From contig NZ_AOIO01000025.1 of assembly GCF_000337555.1 (NCBI RefSeq), forward strand, positions 1 to 32,133: 32,133 bases of DNA. The letters are read 5' to 3'. Shown one piece after another: positions 8,673 to 29,658 of the stretch. The notes below the pieces were generated by a model that did not search any database, had not been told where the DNA came from, and saw only the letters and a list, made by a program, of their open reading frames with translations. This DNA is from Natrialba asiatica DSM 12278. Its GTDB lineage: Archaea; Halobacteriota; Halobacteria; Halobacteriales; Natrialbaceae. Position numbers and translations under genes: made by a program. The stretch's first letter is position 1, and each line of letters begins with the position of its first letter.

Positions 8673-9659
8673 TTATCCCTCGTTTCCGTCCGACACCACC
8701 GACTCACCGTGGGACGGCGCGGCTGAACTCGAGTCCCCGTCGGCCGTCTCGGACTCGTCGAAAACTATCCGTGCAGTCCCGCTTTGCTCGTTAAACACGT
8801 GATGACGGTGCGGATAGGCGAACTCGACATCGAGTTCAGCGAAGCGCTCGCGGACCGCTGACTGAACTCGCGACCGGGCGACCATTCGTTTGTAGGGTTG
8901 TTCGACCCAGAACGAGAGTCGGAGCAGGATGCCGTTGTCGGCGTAAGATTCGATCGTACAGACGGGAGCAGCCGCGTACCGCGCGCTGCCGATACGGATG
9001 TCGGGGCCGCCGGCGATAACCGTCTCGACGCTGCGTGCGGCGCGTTCGGCGTGACGGCGCGCGGCTTCGACGTCGCTCTCGTACGTGATCTCGAACTCGA
9101 CGTCGATCCGAGTACGTTCGTCTTCGGCGGAGTAGTTGATCACGTCGCGGGTGTAGATTTCGGAGTTCGGAATGACCAGCAGCGTATTTTCGAGCGTGAA
9201 AATTTTCGTATAGCGGATCGTGATGTCCTCGACGAATCCGGTGTGGCCGACATCGGCGATTTCGATCATGTCGCCGATCTCGTAGGGGCGGTCTGCAAGA
9301 ACGAAGATACCGGTGATGAAACTGCTGACGAGTGGCGCGATGACGACGGCAACCACGGCGGAGATGACGGTCACTGAGAGGAGGATATTCGTGTTGCCGA
9401 TGTCGAGGATACTGGCAGCGACGCCCAGTGTCAGCAGCAGGACAGTCGCTCGAACACCGCGCAGGACGGTTCGGGTGACGCTCGGACGATCGATACGGCG
9501 AGCGACCGTCCGGCCGGTAAGTCGAACGACGACCTTCGAGAGGTACCACCCAATGACGAGGACGAGAAGCGCTGTGACGAGTTCGGTCGCACCGAAGGGG
9601 AGGTAGCCCTGGACTCTCTCGAACGGCTCACTTGCAACTCCCGGCCAACCCTCACGCAT
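8673..9659 (-). CDS. MscS-family small-conductance mechanosensitive channel
   Basis: A 328-residue membrane channel that opens under membrane tension and releases solutes on hypo-osmotic shock, a clear need for a halophile. Three membrane helices are predicted: about 22-42 (VTALLVLVIGWYLSKVVV), about 69-87, and the pore helix around VISAVVAVVIAPLVSSFITG. The family signature follows as DRPYEIGDMIEIADVGHTGFVEDITIRYT. Next comes the beta domain (LVIPNSEIYTRDVINYS) and a C-terminal alpha/beta domain. A disordered acidic tail ends the protein. A GGTTAAGG element (9683-9690, read on the minus strand) lies 24-31 nt before the ATG. Confidence 0.95.
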   Translation of the reverse strand: MREGWPGVASEPFERVQGYLPFGATELVTALLVLVIGWYLSKVVVRLTGRTVARRIDRPSVTRTVLRGVRATVLLLTLGVAASILDIGNTNILLSVTVISAVVAVVIAPLVSSFITGIFVLADRPYEIGDMIEIADVGHTGFVEDITIRYTKIFTLENTLLVIPNSEIYTRDVINYSAEDERTRIDVEFEITYESDVEAARRHAERAARSVETVIAGGPDIRIGSARYAAAPVCTIESYADNGILLRLSFWVEQPYKRMVARSRVQSAVRERFAELDVEFAYPHRHHVFNEQSGTARIVFDESETADGDSSSAAPSHGESVVSDGNEG

Positions 9660-24247: not shown

Positions 24248-24940
24248 TTACGCCAGCGGCAACGCATCGATCGCCTCTCGTCGCCCATCGAGCACACTGA
24301 ACCGCTCCTCGCGGCGGCTCTCGAGCCATCGAAGCAACCGCTCCGCCCATGCGAGCTTCCGCGCTTTCATCGAACTCACCGTCTCGTCGTCGAAATCCCA
24401 CCCGACGAAAACCAACCGGGCCGCACCGAGGTGATCCGCAAGAAACGCCGCCCGGTCGCCGTCGGTGAACCCCCCGAAATTCCGGACCGGCCCCCGCGGC
24501 TCCACCTGCGTCGTCGGCAGGACGAACTCGTCGGCACAATCCGGCACGACGCGCCGAATCGCCGGCACATTGTCTCCGTGGGCGTGAACTGCTACCGGAA
24601 CGCCGTCTGCGGTGAGTCGTCGAACCGTCTCCGGGTTCTTATCCAGGTCCGTAACCATACAGTCCACCTCGATGCCGTTCGACGCGAGCACGTCGACTGC
24701 CGTTGAGGCCGCGACGACCACATCGACGGCCCGCGCTCGGTCGAGTTCAGGGTCGGTTTCGAGCGACGGGCCGGCACCCGCGATGGCGACGGTCGCACCG
24801 TCGACCGGCGAAAGCGCGTCGAGGTCGAACGGCGCCGTGAGCGAGGCGAGCACGTCGCGGGCCCGCTCGTCGCCGCTGCGCTCGTAGCCGAACTCGCGAC
24901 GGATTTCCTCGTAGACGGGGTTCCAGGAATCGAATTCCAT
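24248..24940 (-). CDS. mptE: 6-hydroxymethyl-dihydropterin pyrophosphokinase, MptE type
   Basis: A 230-residue enzyme of the archaeal MptE (DUF115-related) family, which transfers pyrophosphate from ATP to 6-hydroxymethyl-7,8-dihydropterin, replacing bacterial FolK. Family features seen are VAIAGAGPSLE (51-61), VTDLDKNPE (97-104) with acidic metal-binding residues D98 and D100, and VHAHGDNVPAI near 118. Downstream are NFGGFTDGDRA and VFVGWDFDD. The gene lies downstream of folP on the same strand, so product and next enzyme of the pterin pathway are encoded together. There is no TATA box at leaderless distance; transcription probably enters from the promoter at 25112-25118. Confidence 0.92.
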   Translation of the reverse strand: MEFDSWNPVYEEIRREFGYERSGDERARDVLASLTAPFDLDALSPVDGATVAIAGAGPSLETDPELDRARAVDVVVAASTAVDVLASNGIEVDCMVTDLDKNPETVRRLTADGVPVAVHAHGDNVPAIRRVVPDCADEFVLPTTQVEPRGPVRNFGGFTDGDRAAFLADHLGAARLVFVGWDFDDETVSSMKARKLAWAERLLRWLESRREERFSVLDGRREAIDALPLA

Positions 24941-24949
24941 TATCGAGAG

Positions 24950-25088
24950 ATGGGCGCACGTACAGTTGTGTGATTCGGCTTTGACTGCGCCAGCGTCGCC
25001 ACTCCGGAGCGTAACACCACAATAATTCCGTGTTGTGGGCCGGGGGTCGCCTCCAAAGTACCCCTACCCGGGAGGCCGCCCGGCGTCC
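24950..25088 (-). ncRNA. Structured non-coding RNA or leader between folP and mptE
   Basis: The 188-nt gap between folP and mptE holds a strong minus-strand promoter followed by a highly folded segment. GCCGGG/CCCGGC (25039-25044 with 25079-25084) and GCCTCC/GGAGGC (25049-25054 with 25071-25076) stack with a small internal loop and a 16-nt terminal loop. A second hairpin, CCACAA/TTGTGG (25017-25022 with 25033-25038), follows. On the RNA strand the first stem is followed by CC then ACAACA, reminiscent of the ACA box of an H/ACA guide RNA, although the internal loop looks too small for a standard guide pocket. It may instead be the mptE leader. Ends are approximate. Confidence 0.45.
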
Positions 25089-25111
25089 AGTCTTCCATTT
25101 CGAAGCCTTCG

Positions 25112-25118
25112 GTATAAG
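25112..25118 (-). promoter_or_regulatory. TATA box of the folP-mptE intergenic RNA
   Basis: Minus-strand CTTATAC, preceded by the purine stretch GAGAAAG as a likely BRE. It predicts transcription from about 25088, exactly at the edge of the folded segment. It lies only 11 nt beyond the folP stop codon. Confidence 0.6.
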
Positions 25119-25128
25119 CTTTCTCTTA

Positions 25129-26409
25129 CTACAGTAGGTTGTCGAGTTCGCGCCCGAGTTGACCGGTATCCTCACCAGACGTCCTGAGACGACGAGAAAC
25201 GGCCGAAAGGCTGGCTACCGTTCCGATGAGGAGCGAACGGTCGTCGGCCGTTTCGAACAGTTCGACGGGCGTCGTGCGACCACTGCCGTCGCCGCCGCTA
25301 GTACCACGACGGCTACCGCGTCCACAATCACCAGTGCGAGCGTTTGCACGCTCCGAGCGAACGGTTTCGACGGCCGCCGTCAGCTGCTCGCGCTGGCTTG
25401 CAGACAGCCCCTCGAGTTCGAACGCGTGTGGCTGGAACGCAGCTGCAATCGCGGTGTCGACGCCTCGCTCGTCGAGGTGGCGGCGAAACGTCCGCGTCGA
25501 ATCGATATCGAGTCTCGAAACGGTGACGGACTCGGTCATCGAACTCGCCCGTTCGGTGAACGCAGCGCCGATACGCGCCGCGTCGCGCGTTTCCGCCACG
25601 TCGTGAGTTCGGATCACGTGGGCACCGCGTTCGACCGCCATCGAGGTTGCCGCGAGACTAACCGGGAGTCGATCCGCGGTCTCGCGGTCTGCGATCGCAC
25701 CGAGGAAGTTCTTCCGGTTGATCGAGACCAGCATCGGCCGTCCGAGCGCGCGGAACTCGCGGAGCCGTCGGAACGTCTCCCGGTCGTCGTCGAGCGTCTG
25801 CGCCCCGCTCCAGCCGCCGAACGCGGGATCGATAATCGTCTTGTCCGTGAGTCCGTTCTGCTTTAACGCCTCGTAGACCTGATCGACGTAGTCGGCCTCG
25901 GCTGCCCACGCGGGGGATTTTCGGGCCGCCCAGTCGGTTTCCTCGACCGCGCCGGGACGCTCGAGATCCGGCGGACTCGCCATCTTCGCGACAGCCGCGT
26001 CGTGGGCCGCACAGACGGTCGGCAGTTCGGGATCGGCGAACCCAGCGATGTCGTTGACCATGTCGAACCCCCGTGAGAGGGCGGCGTCCGCGACCTCGTG
26101 GTAGCGCGTTTCGATCGAGAAGATCGCGTCGCCGGAGACGCTTTCGATCGTGTCGAGGGCGACGCGGAGCCGTTCGAGTTCGTCCTCGGCCGAGAGCACG
26201 CCGAAGCGTTTGTTCGCCGACTCGAGACCGATATCGACGATGTCGGCACCCTCGTCGATCAGTTCCTCGTCGACGTACCGGGCCGCCTCGCCGGGGTCGT
26301 CGTAGACGCTCGGATCGTAGGGCGACTCCTCGCTGACGTTCAACACACCCATGATCCGCGGCGGGAACTCGTCGCCGATGCCGAGTCCGGCCGCGTCGAC
26401 ACTGTTCAT
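25129..26409 (-). CDS. folP: Dihydropteroate synthase-family protein with C-terminal extension
   Basis: Joins p-aminobenzoate to the pterin pyrophosphate made by MptE in folate synthesis. The TIM-barrel core covers about residues 15-285. The family motifs are present but altered: IMGVLNVSEESPYDPSVY (19-36), DIGLESANKRFG (59-70) in place of the bacterial DxGGESTRPG, FSIETRYHEVA (97-107), FDMVNDIAGF, IIDPAFGGW (192-200), PMLVSINRKNF (225-235) and IRTHDV (266-271). Residues 286-426 form an extra domain rich in Arg, Ser and Gly linkers, which is not part of bacterial DHPS (about 280 residues). The start ATG is at 26409. A related pterin transferase role cannot be excluded. Confidence 0.9.
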   Translation of the reverse strand: MNSVDAAGLGIGDEFPPRIMGVLNVSEESPYDPSVYDDPGEAARYVDEELIDEGADIVDIGLESANKRFGVLSAEDELERLRVALDTIESVSGDAIFSIETRYHEVADAALSRGFDMVNDIAGFADPELPTVCAAHDAAVAKMASPPDLERPGAVEETDWAARKSPAWAAEADYVDQVYEALKQNGLTDKTIIDPAFGGWSGAQTLDDDRETFRRLREFRALGRPMLVSINRKNFLGAIADRETADRLPVSLAATSMAVERGAHVIRTHDVAETRDAARIGAAFTERASSMTESVTVSRLDIDSTRTFRRHLDERGVDTAIAAAFQPHAFELEGLSASQREQLTAAVETVRSERANARTGDCGRGSRRGTSGGDGSGRTTPVELFETADDRSLLIGTVASLSAVSRRLRTSGEDTGQLGRELDNLL

Positions 26410-26654: not shown

Positions 26655-27938
26655 TTATGCCCAGTGACCCACACTCGATTGCTCGTCGTCCGTATCCTGG
26701 GATTCCTCGCTCGCTCCCTCCTCCAGCGGCGCGAGTCGTGAATCACGCAGCAGGACCTTCTTCACTATCGACGGATTCTCGAGCAACCGATGTTTCGCGT
26801 GCGCCCCGCGCCCGCGCCCCCGACCCTCGCGTTCGGACTGGATCACGTTGAGGAAGTTCTGCTCCTGGAGGATCTCCTGCACGCGGCGTTCCGAGAGCAC
26901 GTCGAAATCGAGTCGGTTCGCGACTTCCTTGTACTGGTTGTAGATGATCTTCGTCGGGAACTCCTTTTCCGTGCTGTTCTCGGTGAGCAGCGTCAGCGAA
27001 TACAGAATCGCTTTGGCCTGCTGTGGCGAGCCCTCGATGAGTTCGTTGAACCGGTCGGCTTCGGTCTTCTCTTTGGCGTCGCGGACGTGATCTGCCGTCA
27101 CGCGCGTGGCGTTTTGCTTCTTTGCGATCCGGCCCGCGTTCCGGAGGATGTCGATTGCCTTTCGCGCGTCCCCGTGTTCTTGCGCGGCGAGCGCTGCGGT
27201 CAGCGGAATCACGTCCCCCGAGAGCACGCCGTCGTGGAACGCGTCGCGGCGCTTTTCCAGGATTTCGACCAGTTGATTGGCGTCGTACGGAGAGAAGACG
27301 AGTTCGTCGCGAGAGAGGCTCGATTTGACGCGTTCGGAGAGGTGGTCGGGAAAGTCTATCTTGTTCGAGATGCCGATGATGCCGATGCTCGAATCCGAGA
27401 TACGGCGGTTCTCGCCCGCTCGCGAGAGTTTGCGCAGGACTTCGTCGTCTTCGAGCATGTCGATCTCGTCGAGAATAACGATAGTCACGTCGGTGCACTG
27501 GTCGACGGCTTGCCAGAGGCGTTTGTAGTAGTCGCCGGTACCCAGGCCGCGGTCGGGAACGGTGATGCCGCTTTGATTCGAGTCGTTGACGATCTGGGCG
27601 ATCGTCTTGATGATCGAAGCCTCGGTGTTCTGTTCGCCACAGTCGATGAACGCGTACTTTACTGTCACGTCGTCGCGTCGGGCCTCCGAAATCACGCGCT
27701 TTGTTACCGAGCGCGAGATGAGCGACTTTCCGGTGCCGGTCTTGCCGAAGATGAACAGGTGGTTTGGCTCGCTCCCGAAAATAGCCGGGTTCAGCGCGTC
27801 CGCCACCCGTTGCATCTGCTCGTCGCGGCCGACGATGCGGTCCGGGCCGGGCAGATGCGTGATTTCGAGCAATCGCTCGTCGGCGAAGACCGGATCGTCG
27901 TACCGAAAGAGCGGGTCACGATCGTCGTTGGCGGACAT
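26655..27938 (-). CDS. Orc1/Cdc6 replication initiator
   Basis: A 427-residue AAA+ ATPase that binds origin recognition boxes and starts archaeal chromosome replication. Walker A is GKTGTGKS (65-72), Walker B is VILDEID (154-160), and sensor 1 is in GIIGISNKIDF. Sensor 2 is around GDARKAIDILRNAG. The C-terminal third is a winged-helix DNA-binding domain, including VANRLDFDVLSERRVQEILQ. The protein ends with an acidic, Ser/Glu-rich tail. It is transcribed away from a gene-free segment with ORB-like repeats, the arrangement seen at haloarchaeal origins. Among the multiple haloarchaeal paralogues it is likely the main origin-linked Orc1, by context. Confidence 0.95.
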   Translation of the reverse strand: MSANDDRDPLFRYDDPVFADERLLEITHLPGPDRIVGRDEQMQRVADALNPAIFGSEPNHLFIFGKTGTGKSLISRSVTKRVISEARRDDVTVKYAFIDCGEQNTEASIIKTIAQIVNDSNQSGITVPDRGLGTGDYYKRLWQAVDQCTDVTIVILDEIDMLEDDEVLRKLSRAGENRRISDSSIGIIGISNKIDFPDHLSERVKSSLSRDELVFSPYDANQLVEILEKRRDAFHDGVLSGDVIPLTAALAAQEHGDARKAIDILRNAGRIAKKQNATRVTADHVRDAKEKTEADRFNELIEGSPQQAKAILYSLTLLTENSTEKEFPTKIIYNQYKEVANRLDFDVLSERRVQEILQEQNFLNVIQSEREGRGRGRGAHAKHRLLENPSIVKKVLLRDSRLAPLEEGASEESQDTDDEQSSVGHWA

Positions 27939-27968
27939 TGCAGTACCGGGTGTCTTCCAACTGGACTG

Positions 27969-27976
27969 AAATAAAG
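27969..27976 (-). promoter_or_regulatory. orc1/cdc6 promoter TATA box
   Basis: Minus-strand CTTTATTT lies 31-38 nt before the ATG at 27938. An ORB-like partial repeat begins 14 nt further upstream at 27990, so the initiator could influence its own transcription. Confidence 0.5.
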
Positions 27977-27989
27977 GTATGGAGATCGA

Positions 27990-28003
27990 TCGCGGATGTA
28001 AAT
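27990..28003 (-). repeat. ORB-like repeat A (partial)
   Basis: TCGCGGATGTAAAT is identical over 14 nt to the matching part of repeat B, but lacks the preceding CCCCC (the G-string on the other strand). It is the copy nearest to orc1/cdc6, just upstream of the promoter. Confidence 0.7.
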
Positions 28004-28131
28004 AAGGCTCGTTCGAGTCTCAAACGCCATAATAGAGGAAGTACTCGGGATAGGACCGGAATAGCCGGCCTCGCGCTTCTAACGACACCCGTGCGAGCGT
28101 GGAAGTTCGCACGACGACTCCACGCCCCCTG

Positions 28132-28154
28132 ACACCCCCGTCGCGGATGTAAAT
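28132..28154 (-). repeat. ORB-like repeat B
   Basis: A full-length element with ACACCCCC followed by GTCGCGGATGTAAAT. Positions 28132-28152 are identical over 21 nt to repeat C, 184 nt away. Read on the minus strand it starts TTACATCCGCG and ends with the string GGGGGTGT. Confidence 0.85.
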
Positions 28155-28315
28155 TCACGACACGGAAGCGCGGTCCGAACGCGAAAACAGCCGCTACGAA
28201 TGCGTTTCCGGAACCGGAGACAGTCACCGAACTGGCGGAGAATCCGTACGAGTTCAGCGATAAAACTAGGAGCACCGTTTCGACGGTGACTGGCGCGACT
28301 GGTACGTCGGGACAC

Positions 28316-28336
28316 ACACCCCCGTCGCGGATGTAA
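28316..28336 (-). repeat. ORB-like repeat C
   Basis: A full-length copy, identical to repeat B over 21 nt and in the same orientation. It borders the candidate unwinding segment at 28337-28407 on its left side. Confidence 0.85.
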
Positions 28337-28407
28337 CGCCGAAAGGGGCGGGGTGGTATTCTCGCAAGTCCCTATTTCGGAAAATACGATGGGTTTCGAA
28401 GCGGATC

Positions 28408-28428
28408 TTACATCCGCGGGACAGGTGT
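28408..28428 (+). repeat. ORB-like repeat D, inverted
   Basis: TTACATCCGCGGGACAGGTG and the following T match repeats B and C in the opposite direction, with a weakened G-string. It borders the candidate unwinding segment on its right side, so C and D form the inward-facing pair. Confidence 0.8.
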
Positions 28429-28461
28429 GTTGTCAAACAGACCCTCCCCACGCAAACGGCG

Positions 28462-28484
28462 TTACAAACGCGAGGGTGGTGTGT
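28462..28484 (+). repeat. ORB-like repeat E, degenerate
   Basis: TTACAAACGCGAGGGTGGTG and the following TGT keep the TTACA start, the CGCGA core and a G-rich end. It has the same direction as repeat D, 54 nt downstream. It is a degenerate but convincing fifth copy. Confidence 0.6.
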
Positions 28485-28643
28485 CCCTCTTCCACAACGC
28501 GACAACATGTTCGCTATCCCGCCGGTTTGCGGCTTCGATCGTTTCTTGCGGACGGTAGCGTGAGGACGCGAGCATGGATTTAACGCAGACGAAAGGCGGG
28601 GAATACGACGCAAAAGCGGGAAAAAGCGGTGTGGTATCGTCTC

Positions 28644-28706
28644 TCTAGTCTAGCTAGATTTAGTTATATCTACCTAACTAGTCTAGCTAGACTAGAACCG
28701 TTCTAG
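28644..28706. repeat. CTAG-rich inverted repeat in the origin region
   Basis: TCTAGTCTAGCTAGA (28644-28658) and TCTAGCTAGACTAGA (28682-28696) form a perfect 15-bp inverted repeat. A 14-bp direct repeat, CTAGTCTAGCTAGA, also occurs at 28645 and 28678. The block holds eight CTAG tetranucleotides in about 62 bp and an AT-rich centre (ATTTAGTTATATCTACCTAA). CTAG is a rare tetranucleotide in most prokaryotic genomes. It may be an unwinding element or a protein-binding array. Confidence 0.9.
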
Positions 28707-28776
28707 ACGAAAGAAACAGAACACAACACCCGCACGGTACCCGAACGGGAGCCGCAATACTCTCGCTATGGACGAC

Positions 28777-28790
28777 TCGACAGCTGTCGA
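28777..28790. repeat. 14-bp perfect palindrome upstream of the trmJ-type gene
   Basis: TCGACAGCTGTCGA is self-complementary, 83 nt before the ATG at 28873. It could be an operator or part of the origin region. No repeat of it was noticed elsewhere. Confidence 0.5.
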
Positions 28791-28872
28791 TCGTAACGGC
28801 GACTCGACCGCACCGACGAACACGTCACTTTTGACCGCTCGTTCGATACTCTGTACACACACTCCCGCCGTC

Positions 28873-29658
28873 ATGACCGACACTCACACCTCTTCGCACG
28901 GATCCGACGCGTCCGCTCCGGACCACCGAACGCCACCAGCAGTCGCCGTCGTCGACGCCAAATTCTCCGGCAACGTCGGTACCATCGCCAGGGCCATGAA
29001 GAACTTCGGGTTCTCCGATCTGCTGCTCGTCGACCCGCCCGAACTCGATCCCGACGGCGAGGCCTACGGCTTCGCCGGCCACGCCCGCGAGGACGTCCTC
29101 CCGAACGCGACCGAACTCTCCTTCGACGAACTCGCCTCGTCCTACCACACAATCGGCTGTACCGCCGTCACGAACGAAGACGACCGCAGCCACGTTCGAT
29201 TTCCGTTCTCGACGCCCGCTGAACTCGCCGACCGACTCCCGACCGTCGACGCGCCGACCGCGCTCGTTTTCGGCCGCGAGCGCGTCGGCCTGACCAACGA
29301 CGAACTCGCTCGCATCGACGAAATCTGCTCGATTCCAGCGAACGAGGAGTATCCCGTCCTCAACCTCGGCCAGGCCGCGACGGTTACGCTCTACGAACTG
29401 CGCTCGCTCGCGCTCGACGCGGACGAGACGCAACTCCCCGATGTCGACCGAGTTCGTGCGTCCGAACAGACGATCGACCGGGTCTACGACCAGTGGAGTG
29501 CGCTCCTCGAGACGATCAACCATCCCCCGGAAAAGCGCGAGAAAGCGATGCGAATGCTCCGGCGCGTCTACGGCCGTGCCGACCTCACGGAACGCGAGGC
29601 GAACACGCTCCTCGGTCTGGTTCGTCGGGCGGCAGAGCGGCCGGCGGAACGGGACTGA
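28873..29658 (+). CDS. trmJ: TrmJ-type tRNA/rRNA 2'-O-methyltransferase (SPOUT)
   Basis: A 261-residue SPOUT (TrmH/SpoU-family) methyltransferase using S-adenosylmethionine. Motif 1 is in FSGNVGTIARAMKNFGF (31-47), motif 2 is LVFGRERVGLTNDEL, and motif 3 is IPANEEYPVLNLGQAATV, the knotted cofactor site. Archaeal TrmJ makes 2'-O-methylcytidine at tRNA position 32; the exact target here is inferred from the family. A C-terminal helical extension (DQWSALLETINHPPEKREKA and following) is typical of TrmJ. The ATG at 28873 is preferred to the longer frame from 28768, as the product then starts just before the methylase domain and a CGATACTC element lies 23-30 nt upstream. Confidence 0.88.
   Translation: MTDTHTSSHGSDASAPDHRTPPAVAVVDAKFSGNVGTIARAMKNFGFSDLLLVDPPELDPDGEAYGFAGHAREDVLPNATELSFDELASSYHTIGCTAVTNEDDRSHVRFPFSTPAELADRLPTVDAPTALVFGRERVGLTNDELARIDEICSIPANEEYPVLNLGQAATVTLYELRSLALDADETQLPDVDRVRASEQTIDRVYDQWSALLETINHPPEKREKAMRMLRRVYGRADLTEREANTLLGLVRRAAERPAERD

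Follow-up and report, generated by a model that had tools for sequence, protein, structure and literature searches.

A probable lineage-conserved replication origin beside orc1/cdc6 in Natrialba asiatica, separate from oriC1

Does the long gene-free stretch beside an orc1/cdc6 gene in Natrialba asiatica DSM 12278 serve as a replication origin and, if so, is it oriC1 or a different one? The stretch lies in the window (the whole stretch of 32,133 bases analyzed here), which is contig C25 of a 4.40-Mb draft genome in 49 contigs that carries seven Orc genes. An intergenic region of 829 bp directly adjoins an intact orc1/cdc6 initiator gene (26655..27938, minus strand; 427 aa; TIGR02928, 411 bits; Cdc6_C and Cdc6_lid over the cut-off), the cognate of the ORBs described below. 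On the other side, it is bounded by a divergent gene for a trmJ-family RNA methyltransferase (28768..29658, plus strand; TIGR00050 over the cut-off). The first-pass annotation, which proposed an origin here, extended the region to 28872; this end holds if trmJ starts at its alternative start, 28873, but not for the longer trmJ frame, which begins at 28768. Beyond orc, the minus strand at 24248-26409 carries Pterin_bind (dihydropteroate synthase-like) and MptE-like genes; a replicon of Natrinema thermotolerans likewise has folP and a DUF115 gene after orc.

The ORBs were scored with a PWM trained on 42 orthologous loci, from which every Natrialba locus was excluded (consensus ngTTACAtcCGCGAnGGnGGTGTgTn); it replaced an earlier PWM that included loci near-identical to the window. 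All five motif copies that had been proposed, at 27990, 28132, 28316, 28408, and 28462, were found, with scores of 25-37 bits. The first three lie on the minus strand and the other two on the plus strand, and the TTACA ends point toward 28337-28407, as had been claimed. The strongest copy, ORB3 (28313..28338, minus; 37.3 bits), forms the orc-side boundary of the core and is faced by the outer copy, ORB1 (28460..28485, plus; 34.8 bits), while ORB2 (28406..28431, plus; 25.9 bits) lies inside this pair. ORB4 (28129..28154, minus; 31.9 bits) is an outlying copy with a G-string, and the copy nearest to orc (27978..28003, minus; 25.3 bits) is a half-site whose TTACA is located 63 bp ahead of the orc start. 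A decayed sixth ORB (28059..28084, minus; 7.3 bits) occupies the slot at -144 from orc, which scores 14 to 23 in 24 of the 49 loci compared below. The copies in the window read TTACANNCGCGA. The G-strings had been described as pointing outward in all of them; this is the case for the copies at 28132, 28316, and 28462, but the G-string is weak at 28408 (GGGACAGG) and missing at 27990 (GATCGATCTCC). The region thus holds repeated, opposed ORBs, three of the five with a clear terminal G-string.

The motif is uncommon outside the locus. Away from these copies, no site in the window scores higher than 8.1 (at 8789), and when the 829-bp region was shuffled 2,000 times with its dinucleotides preserved, sites above 12 bits arose in only 7 cases (maximum, 15.5). 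When the draft genome was searched for TTACANNCGCGANGGNGGTGTG with up to 3 mismatches, eight sites were found: four at the locus and four elsewhere, the latter each with exactly 3 mismatches, compared with two sites for the reversed control. The shorter TTACATCCGCG occurs nine times, four of them at the locus (control, 1). Both searches therefore speak against the repeats being common elsewhere in the genome, which the first-pass annotation had named as a reason to doubt its call. TTACATCCGCG was not found in the texts covered by our literature search, and it may be published elsewhere. A lone strong ORB of the window type (24.8 bits) was also observed on another contig of the same genome (C28, about 44281; L014 1499-1524), between two genes and downstream of a ribosomal protein L11-like gene, named from its reading frame; it is possibly a titration site or a chance occurrence.

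The arrangement of the ORBs was compared among 49 Natrialbaceae loci (the window, L017-L063, and L073). Three features were found. One is that the three-ORB core, in which ORB1 and ORB2 have the same direction and ORB3 is opposed to them, exists in all 49 loci. Another is that the spacings within the core are nearly fixed: ORB1 and ORB2 are 54 bp apart in 40 loci, 56 bp in 7, 52 bp in one, and 53 bp in one, and the ORB2-ORB3 gap is 68-72 bp in 47 loci and 62 bp in 2, so that the 70-bp segment noted at 28337-28407 is real. The last feature is that the distance from the core to orc is variable, ranging from 264 to 792 bp before orc.

G-rich elements were also found in the core. One is located just inside ORB3 (28345..28356, plus), where the sequence forms one arm of a G-rich inverted repeat; in all 49 loci, the last 35 bp before ORB3, read in the orc-forward direction, contain at least 6 C in some 10 bp. 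The other lies between ORB2 and ORB1 (28441..28452, minus), with at least 6 G in some 10 bp in 42 of the 49 loci, and the two are oriented toward each other. Facing G-rich elements are likewise described for oriC1 (cdc6A) of Haloarcula hispanica, for which the sections of the published study available to us report that the G-rich inverted repeat enhances initiation and that the ORB G-strings are essential (PMC3936714). In comparison with that origin as described there, the window origin has a third ORB inside the pair (PMC3936714). The inter-ORB gap is only mildly AT-rich (54.9% GC), and a stretch of 32-40% GC sits outside ORB1. Within the 71-bp gap, the 45 bp beside ORB2 (28363..28407) are less GC-rich, with 51% AT vs 35% in the rest (means over the 49 loci, 51% and 33%), which makes them a candidate unwinding segment.

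The half-site near orc is conserved in its position. Of the 58 loci scanned, 47 have a promoter ORB copy at -62 to -64; the exceptions are the nine loci from outside Natrialbaceae, L060, and L061. In the alignment of 44 loci (L043, L048, L059, L060, and L061, where the promoter copy is shifted or missing, were left out), TTTACA and CGCGA are at least 90% conserved, and the G-string position is taken by another, largely conserved sequence. Just downstream of the half-site, the element TTTATTT (27969..27975, minus; -37 to -31 from orc) is conserved in the same consensus and, from its sequence, is a putative TATA-box-like promoter element of orc.

The ORB sequence is specific to the neighboring Orc family. 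Allowing at most 1 mismatch, we found the 22-bp motif at 60 sites in 19 of the 41 genomes (reversed control, 0), and 59 of these sites adjoin an Orc of the window type when the contigs of G034 and G079 are taken as circular; the exception is one site in G118. Among the 22 motif-free genomes, the 7 within the family all lack a close Orc orthologue, and none of the 7 covered by the Orc search among the 15 outside the family has one. Furthermore, no PWM site above 10 was found at the six other Orc loci of the N. asiatica genome (55,074 bp). A pairing of an Orc family with its own ORB family, on chromosomes and plasmids, was likewise described in the part of Wu et al. 2012 consulted here (PMC3528665).

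Across 427 residues, the Orcs of Natrialba taiwanensis and N. aegyptia are 100% identical (rounded) to that of the window; in other genera of Natrialbaceae, the identity is 81-97%. Matches at E 1e-100 were found in 106 of the 125 family genomes; in 99 of them the best E is below 1e-200, which corresponds to at least 81% identity among the matches listed, and in the other 7 the identity is only about 50%. Since 19 of the 125 genomes have no match at E 1e-100 and these 7 have only the distant one, the Orc is not needed by every family member. Outside the family, orthologues of 64-76% identity occur in Halorussus, Halomarina, Halogranum, and Haloprofundus; relatives were also found in the plasmid collection, while the phage records gave no Orc match. 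trmJ lies beside orc in 44 of the 48 Natrialbaceae loci other than the window, as well as on a 987-kb replicon of Natrinema thermotolerans A29 that is labelled a plasmid (L257, CP031304.1), which may reflect a split chromosome or the assembly. Natronosalvus has an additional ORB just downstream of orc (L259 5497; about 1247 bp after the orc start in L062), recalling the oriC2D titration region of H. hispanica.

The locus is not oriC1, and this assignment was rejected because another contig (C40) of the same genome carries an oriC1-type Orc and a different ORB. The Orc of the window scores 206 bits to Sulfolobus Cdc6-1 (2qby_A), vs 360 bits for the C40 Orc, and it does not belong to the SsoCdc6-1-like class-wide family: in an even draw of 116 class genomes, matches of at least 60% identity were found in 34, and those listed below that level reach at most 53%. 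Upstream of the C40 Orc are opposed ORBs of the GTTCCACTTGAAACGAAGGGGTGGGG type, and the GTTCCA..TGAAAC-type ORB is located there (L098 3000-3378), not in the window. The window ORB TTACANNCGCGANGGNGGTGTG differs from this canonical oriC1-type ORB, judged against the C40 copy and not against the H. hispanica letters. The same separation is seen in N. magadii (chromosome, 3,751,858 bp), whose major origin, in the published annotation, lies near 1.96 Mb: the Orc beside it, at 1,963,905, gives the best Cdc6_C match, as does the C40 Orc in N. asiatica, and the ortholog of the window locus lies at the record start (677). The C40 Orc (L098 3806-5797; 663 aa) was also observed to begin with a long acidic extension and to carry, within the AAA+ domain, some 108 additional residues that look like a disordered insertion. 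A further Orc locus, on C49 (L099 6855-7070), has opposed repeats of its own, ACAGCGGACAT..TGTGGGGTGGG, and is probably a third origin type.

Information on origin activity was obtained from plasmids. The primers of ARS-5 of Natrinema sp. J7 match Natrinema gari (L038) with 0 of 23 and 0 of 21 mismatches and bound 2.3 kb that contain the orthologous origin and orc; by this primer match, the J7 origin oriC9/ARS-5 (pFJ5; PMC5350488) is orthologous to that of the window. According to the portion of that paper at hand, the ARS-5 vector pFJ5 gave fewer than 10 cfu/ug and was recovered intact, and its authors state that it replicates independently, with an efficiency far below those of pFJ1, pFJ4, and pFJ6 (PMC5350488). 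Ori-Finder 2 assigned one ORB to oriC9 in the same text (PMC5350488), vs six sites above 12 bits found here in L038. The primers of ARS-2 were compared with the oriC1-type locus (L098): the first has 3 mismatches and the second was not found, so that a link between oriC1 and pFJ2, for which 0 transformants are given in that portion of the paper (PMC5350488), is only tentative. A literature search for marker-frequency work on replication origins in Natrinema found none, and such work may be published elsewhere.

GC skew at homologous sites on plasmids points in the same direction. In two Haloprofundus plasmids (49,319 and 48,463 bp), where the window-type Orc is the only one annotated in an incomplete gene table, the cumulative GC skew peaks 76 and 107 bp away from the point midway between the strongest opposed ORBs, and its minima are located 3,423 and 31 bp from the antipode. 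The skew amplitude was reached by 0 and 1 of 5,000 block permutations, respectively. On a third plasmid, pMHR1-4, which carries a second Orc, the maximum (26,297) lies between opposed sites at 26,054 and 26,415, about 62 bp from their midpoint (no permutations). These three plasmids are mutually related, with an Orc about 64% identical to that of the window, and amount to little more than one case.

On the chromosome, the skew inversion that had been suggested as a check is not clearly seen. In N. magadii, sampled as 94 half-sampled 20-kb bins, the skew change at the site ranks 63-67 of 94 from the positive end at three widths, which is ordinary. The Orc loci at 935 kb and 1,964 kb rank 93 and 89 at the narrowest width (k=3), in the origin-like direction, and the rank of the 935-kb locus falls to 69 at the widest. 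We also examined 100-kb flanks in four genomes (G094, G017, G054, and G095; only 42 kb on one side in G095). The nearest 20 kb gave skews of +0.020, +0.018, +0.022, and -0.011 on the trmJ side and -0.001, +0.005, +0.005, and -0.014 on the orc side; this fall in 4 of 4 genomes was not counted as support, being small and gene-dependent.

The proposal of an orc1/cdc6-adjacent origin is thus supported by the conservation of motif and geometry, the co-occurrence of motif and Orc, the skew of the Haloprofundus plasmids, and the published, weak plasmid replication in Natrinema. The locus is very probably origin-competent, and we consider it highly likely to be a lineage-conserved replication origin separate from oriC1 that works through Orc-bound opposed ORBs. 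It would be a second orc-adjacent origin, present in 99 of the 125 family genomes and separate from the main start site. Most likely, the adjacent Orc1 would bind the ORBs on both sides of a segment of about 70-125 bp, with ORB3 opposed to ORB1 and ORB2. Once bound, the complex would melt the less GC-rich stretch beside ORB2, the CTAG- and AT-rich tract beyond ORB1 (see below), or both, after which MCM would be loaded and bidirectional replication would follow; in the living chromosome, the origin would be used in this manner. For the G-string-less half-site, which lies directly beside the orc promoter at a constant distance, an autoregulatory role is probable; ORB4, away from the core, is probably an extra Orc-binding site that may act as an enhancer or in titration.

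The most serious alternative is that the origin is dormant, that is, competent and recognized by Orc, with firing in the chromosome rare or absent as long as oriC1 is there. It remains a serious rival because the skew in N. magadii is ordinary and the efficiency of pFJ5 is low (PMC5350488), and we regard it as possible, at somewhat less than even weight. The presence of an oriC1-type Orc with canonical ORBs on another contig is in keeping with it, and a dormant origin is reported for Haloferax mediterranei in the material available from PMC4595724. However, the strict conservation of the geometry over many genera suggests continued use, and the low yield of the plasmid could equally reflect incompatibility with the resident origin, as described for oriC2 of H. 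hispanica in the same partial source as above (PMC3936714). Dormancy overlaps with the reading of the locus as a lineage-conserved origin, which makes no claim that firing in the chromosome has been shown.

It is improbable that the repeats serve transcriptional control only, with Orc regulating its own gene and trmJ and initiating no replication. The half-site at the fixed position of -63 beside the TATA-like box would suit such a function, and a non-initiator regulator, Orc1-2, is known in archaea from what could be consulted of PMC9738581. Nevertheless, the opposed ORBs are located hundreds of base pairs from the promoter with their spacing locked, the ortholog is stated to replicate a plasmid (PMC5350488, as available), and the skew maxima fall at the homologous plasmid site. 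The idea that the repeats were left behind by an integrated plasmid and no longer work, which the plasmid-borne Orc relatives and the one decayed ORB copy might suggest, is very improbable given that the Orc is retained at such high identity across the genera of the family and that none of the 49 loci has lost the three core ORBs.

A past connection with plasmids may still be considered for the ancestry of the locus. In a tree of 39 rows, a hand-picked part of the loci, the 15 trmJ-adjacent rows group together as a single clade (support, 100/98), and the other plasmid and chromosomal relatives fall outside it. This fits a single move to the site beside trmJ, after which the origin was inherited vertically. 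That it came ultimately from a plasmid can only be inferred, because the plasmid rows were drawn from the plasmid collection.

Returning to the reading of the locus as an origin, the last element is a CTAG-rich and AT-rich tract with a 15-bp perfect inverted repeat (28645..28706), which holds 8 of the 16 CTAG sites of the window. No other part of the intergenic region is as AT-rich as the one with these eight sites (28645-28703). Across the 49 loci, the homologous 250-bp interval contains 262 CTAG (21.4/kb), vs 159 in 445,301 bp elsewhere (0.36/kb). At least two CTAG occur within the fixed interval in 44 loci; among the other five, the cluster is located farther upstream in L044, L052, and L055, and no tract was found in L032 and L059 within the DNA compared. 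AT-richness alone was rejected as the cause of this density, since the AT-rich bins of N. magadii have only 1.65/kb. In N. magadii (a 1.88-Mb sample plus the contig end), 300-bp windows with at least four CTAG were found only at 1,960,900-1,961,516, corresponding to oriC1, and from 2,376,175 onward, upstream of another Orc. The tract of the window-type origin itself straddles the numbering start there, with CTAG at 3,751,812, 3,751,847, 16, and 22.

Such clusters do not occur at all Orc loci. In N. magadii, no group of four or more CTAG was found at the sampled Orc locus at 935 kb; among the six other Orc loci of N. asiatica, the C40 locus has 9 CTAG per 300 bp and the remaining five have at most 3. 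At most 3 per 300 bp were also found in eight Halorussus, Halomarina, and Halogranum loci. The locus carries a cluster of methylase target sites, as would be expected of a Dam/SeqA-like arrangement, and the tract is taken to be part of the origin. A candidate for the methylase (359 aa, on C23) was found in 27 of the 27 genomes searched, with or without the tract, and its co-occurrence with the tract is therefore uninformative. The CTAG pattern as such is already known: Blow et al. 2016 (PMC4752239), in the text available to us, describe CTAG clusters in non-coding DNA upstream of haloarchaeal orc genes and propose a link to an orphan methyltransferase. In comparison with that report (PMC4752239), the tract is placed here at base resolution, outside the three-ORB core. 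For H. volcanii, the consulted part of PMC5867850 gives only one origin with the CTAG pattern and no growth defect upon loss of the methylases.

A further reading is that a plasmid-type origin settled beside trmJ with two locked controls, the half-ORB in the promoter and CTAG hemimethylation that delays re-initiation. We hold this combination to be speculative and rather unlikely as a whole. If it is true, the half-ORB in the orc promoter would make the supply of Orc self-limiting, N4-cytosine hemimethylation of the CTAG tract after firing would delay re-initiation, and the two together would be an archaeal counterpart of DnaA autoregulation and Dam/SeqA. The present analysis provides a base-resolution anatomy of what is in all likelihood a second origin common to most of the sampled genomes of one archaeal family, and this origin offers directly testable spacing constraints and a specific Orc-ORB pairing. 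At this one site, both the possible control of an initiator over its own promoter through a G-string-less ORB and the possible timing of initiation by CTAG methylation become testable.
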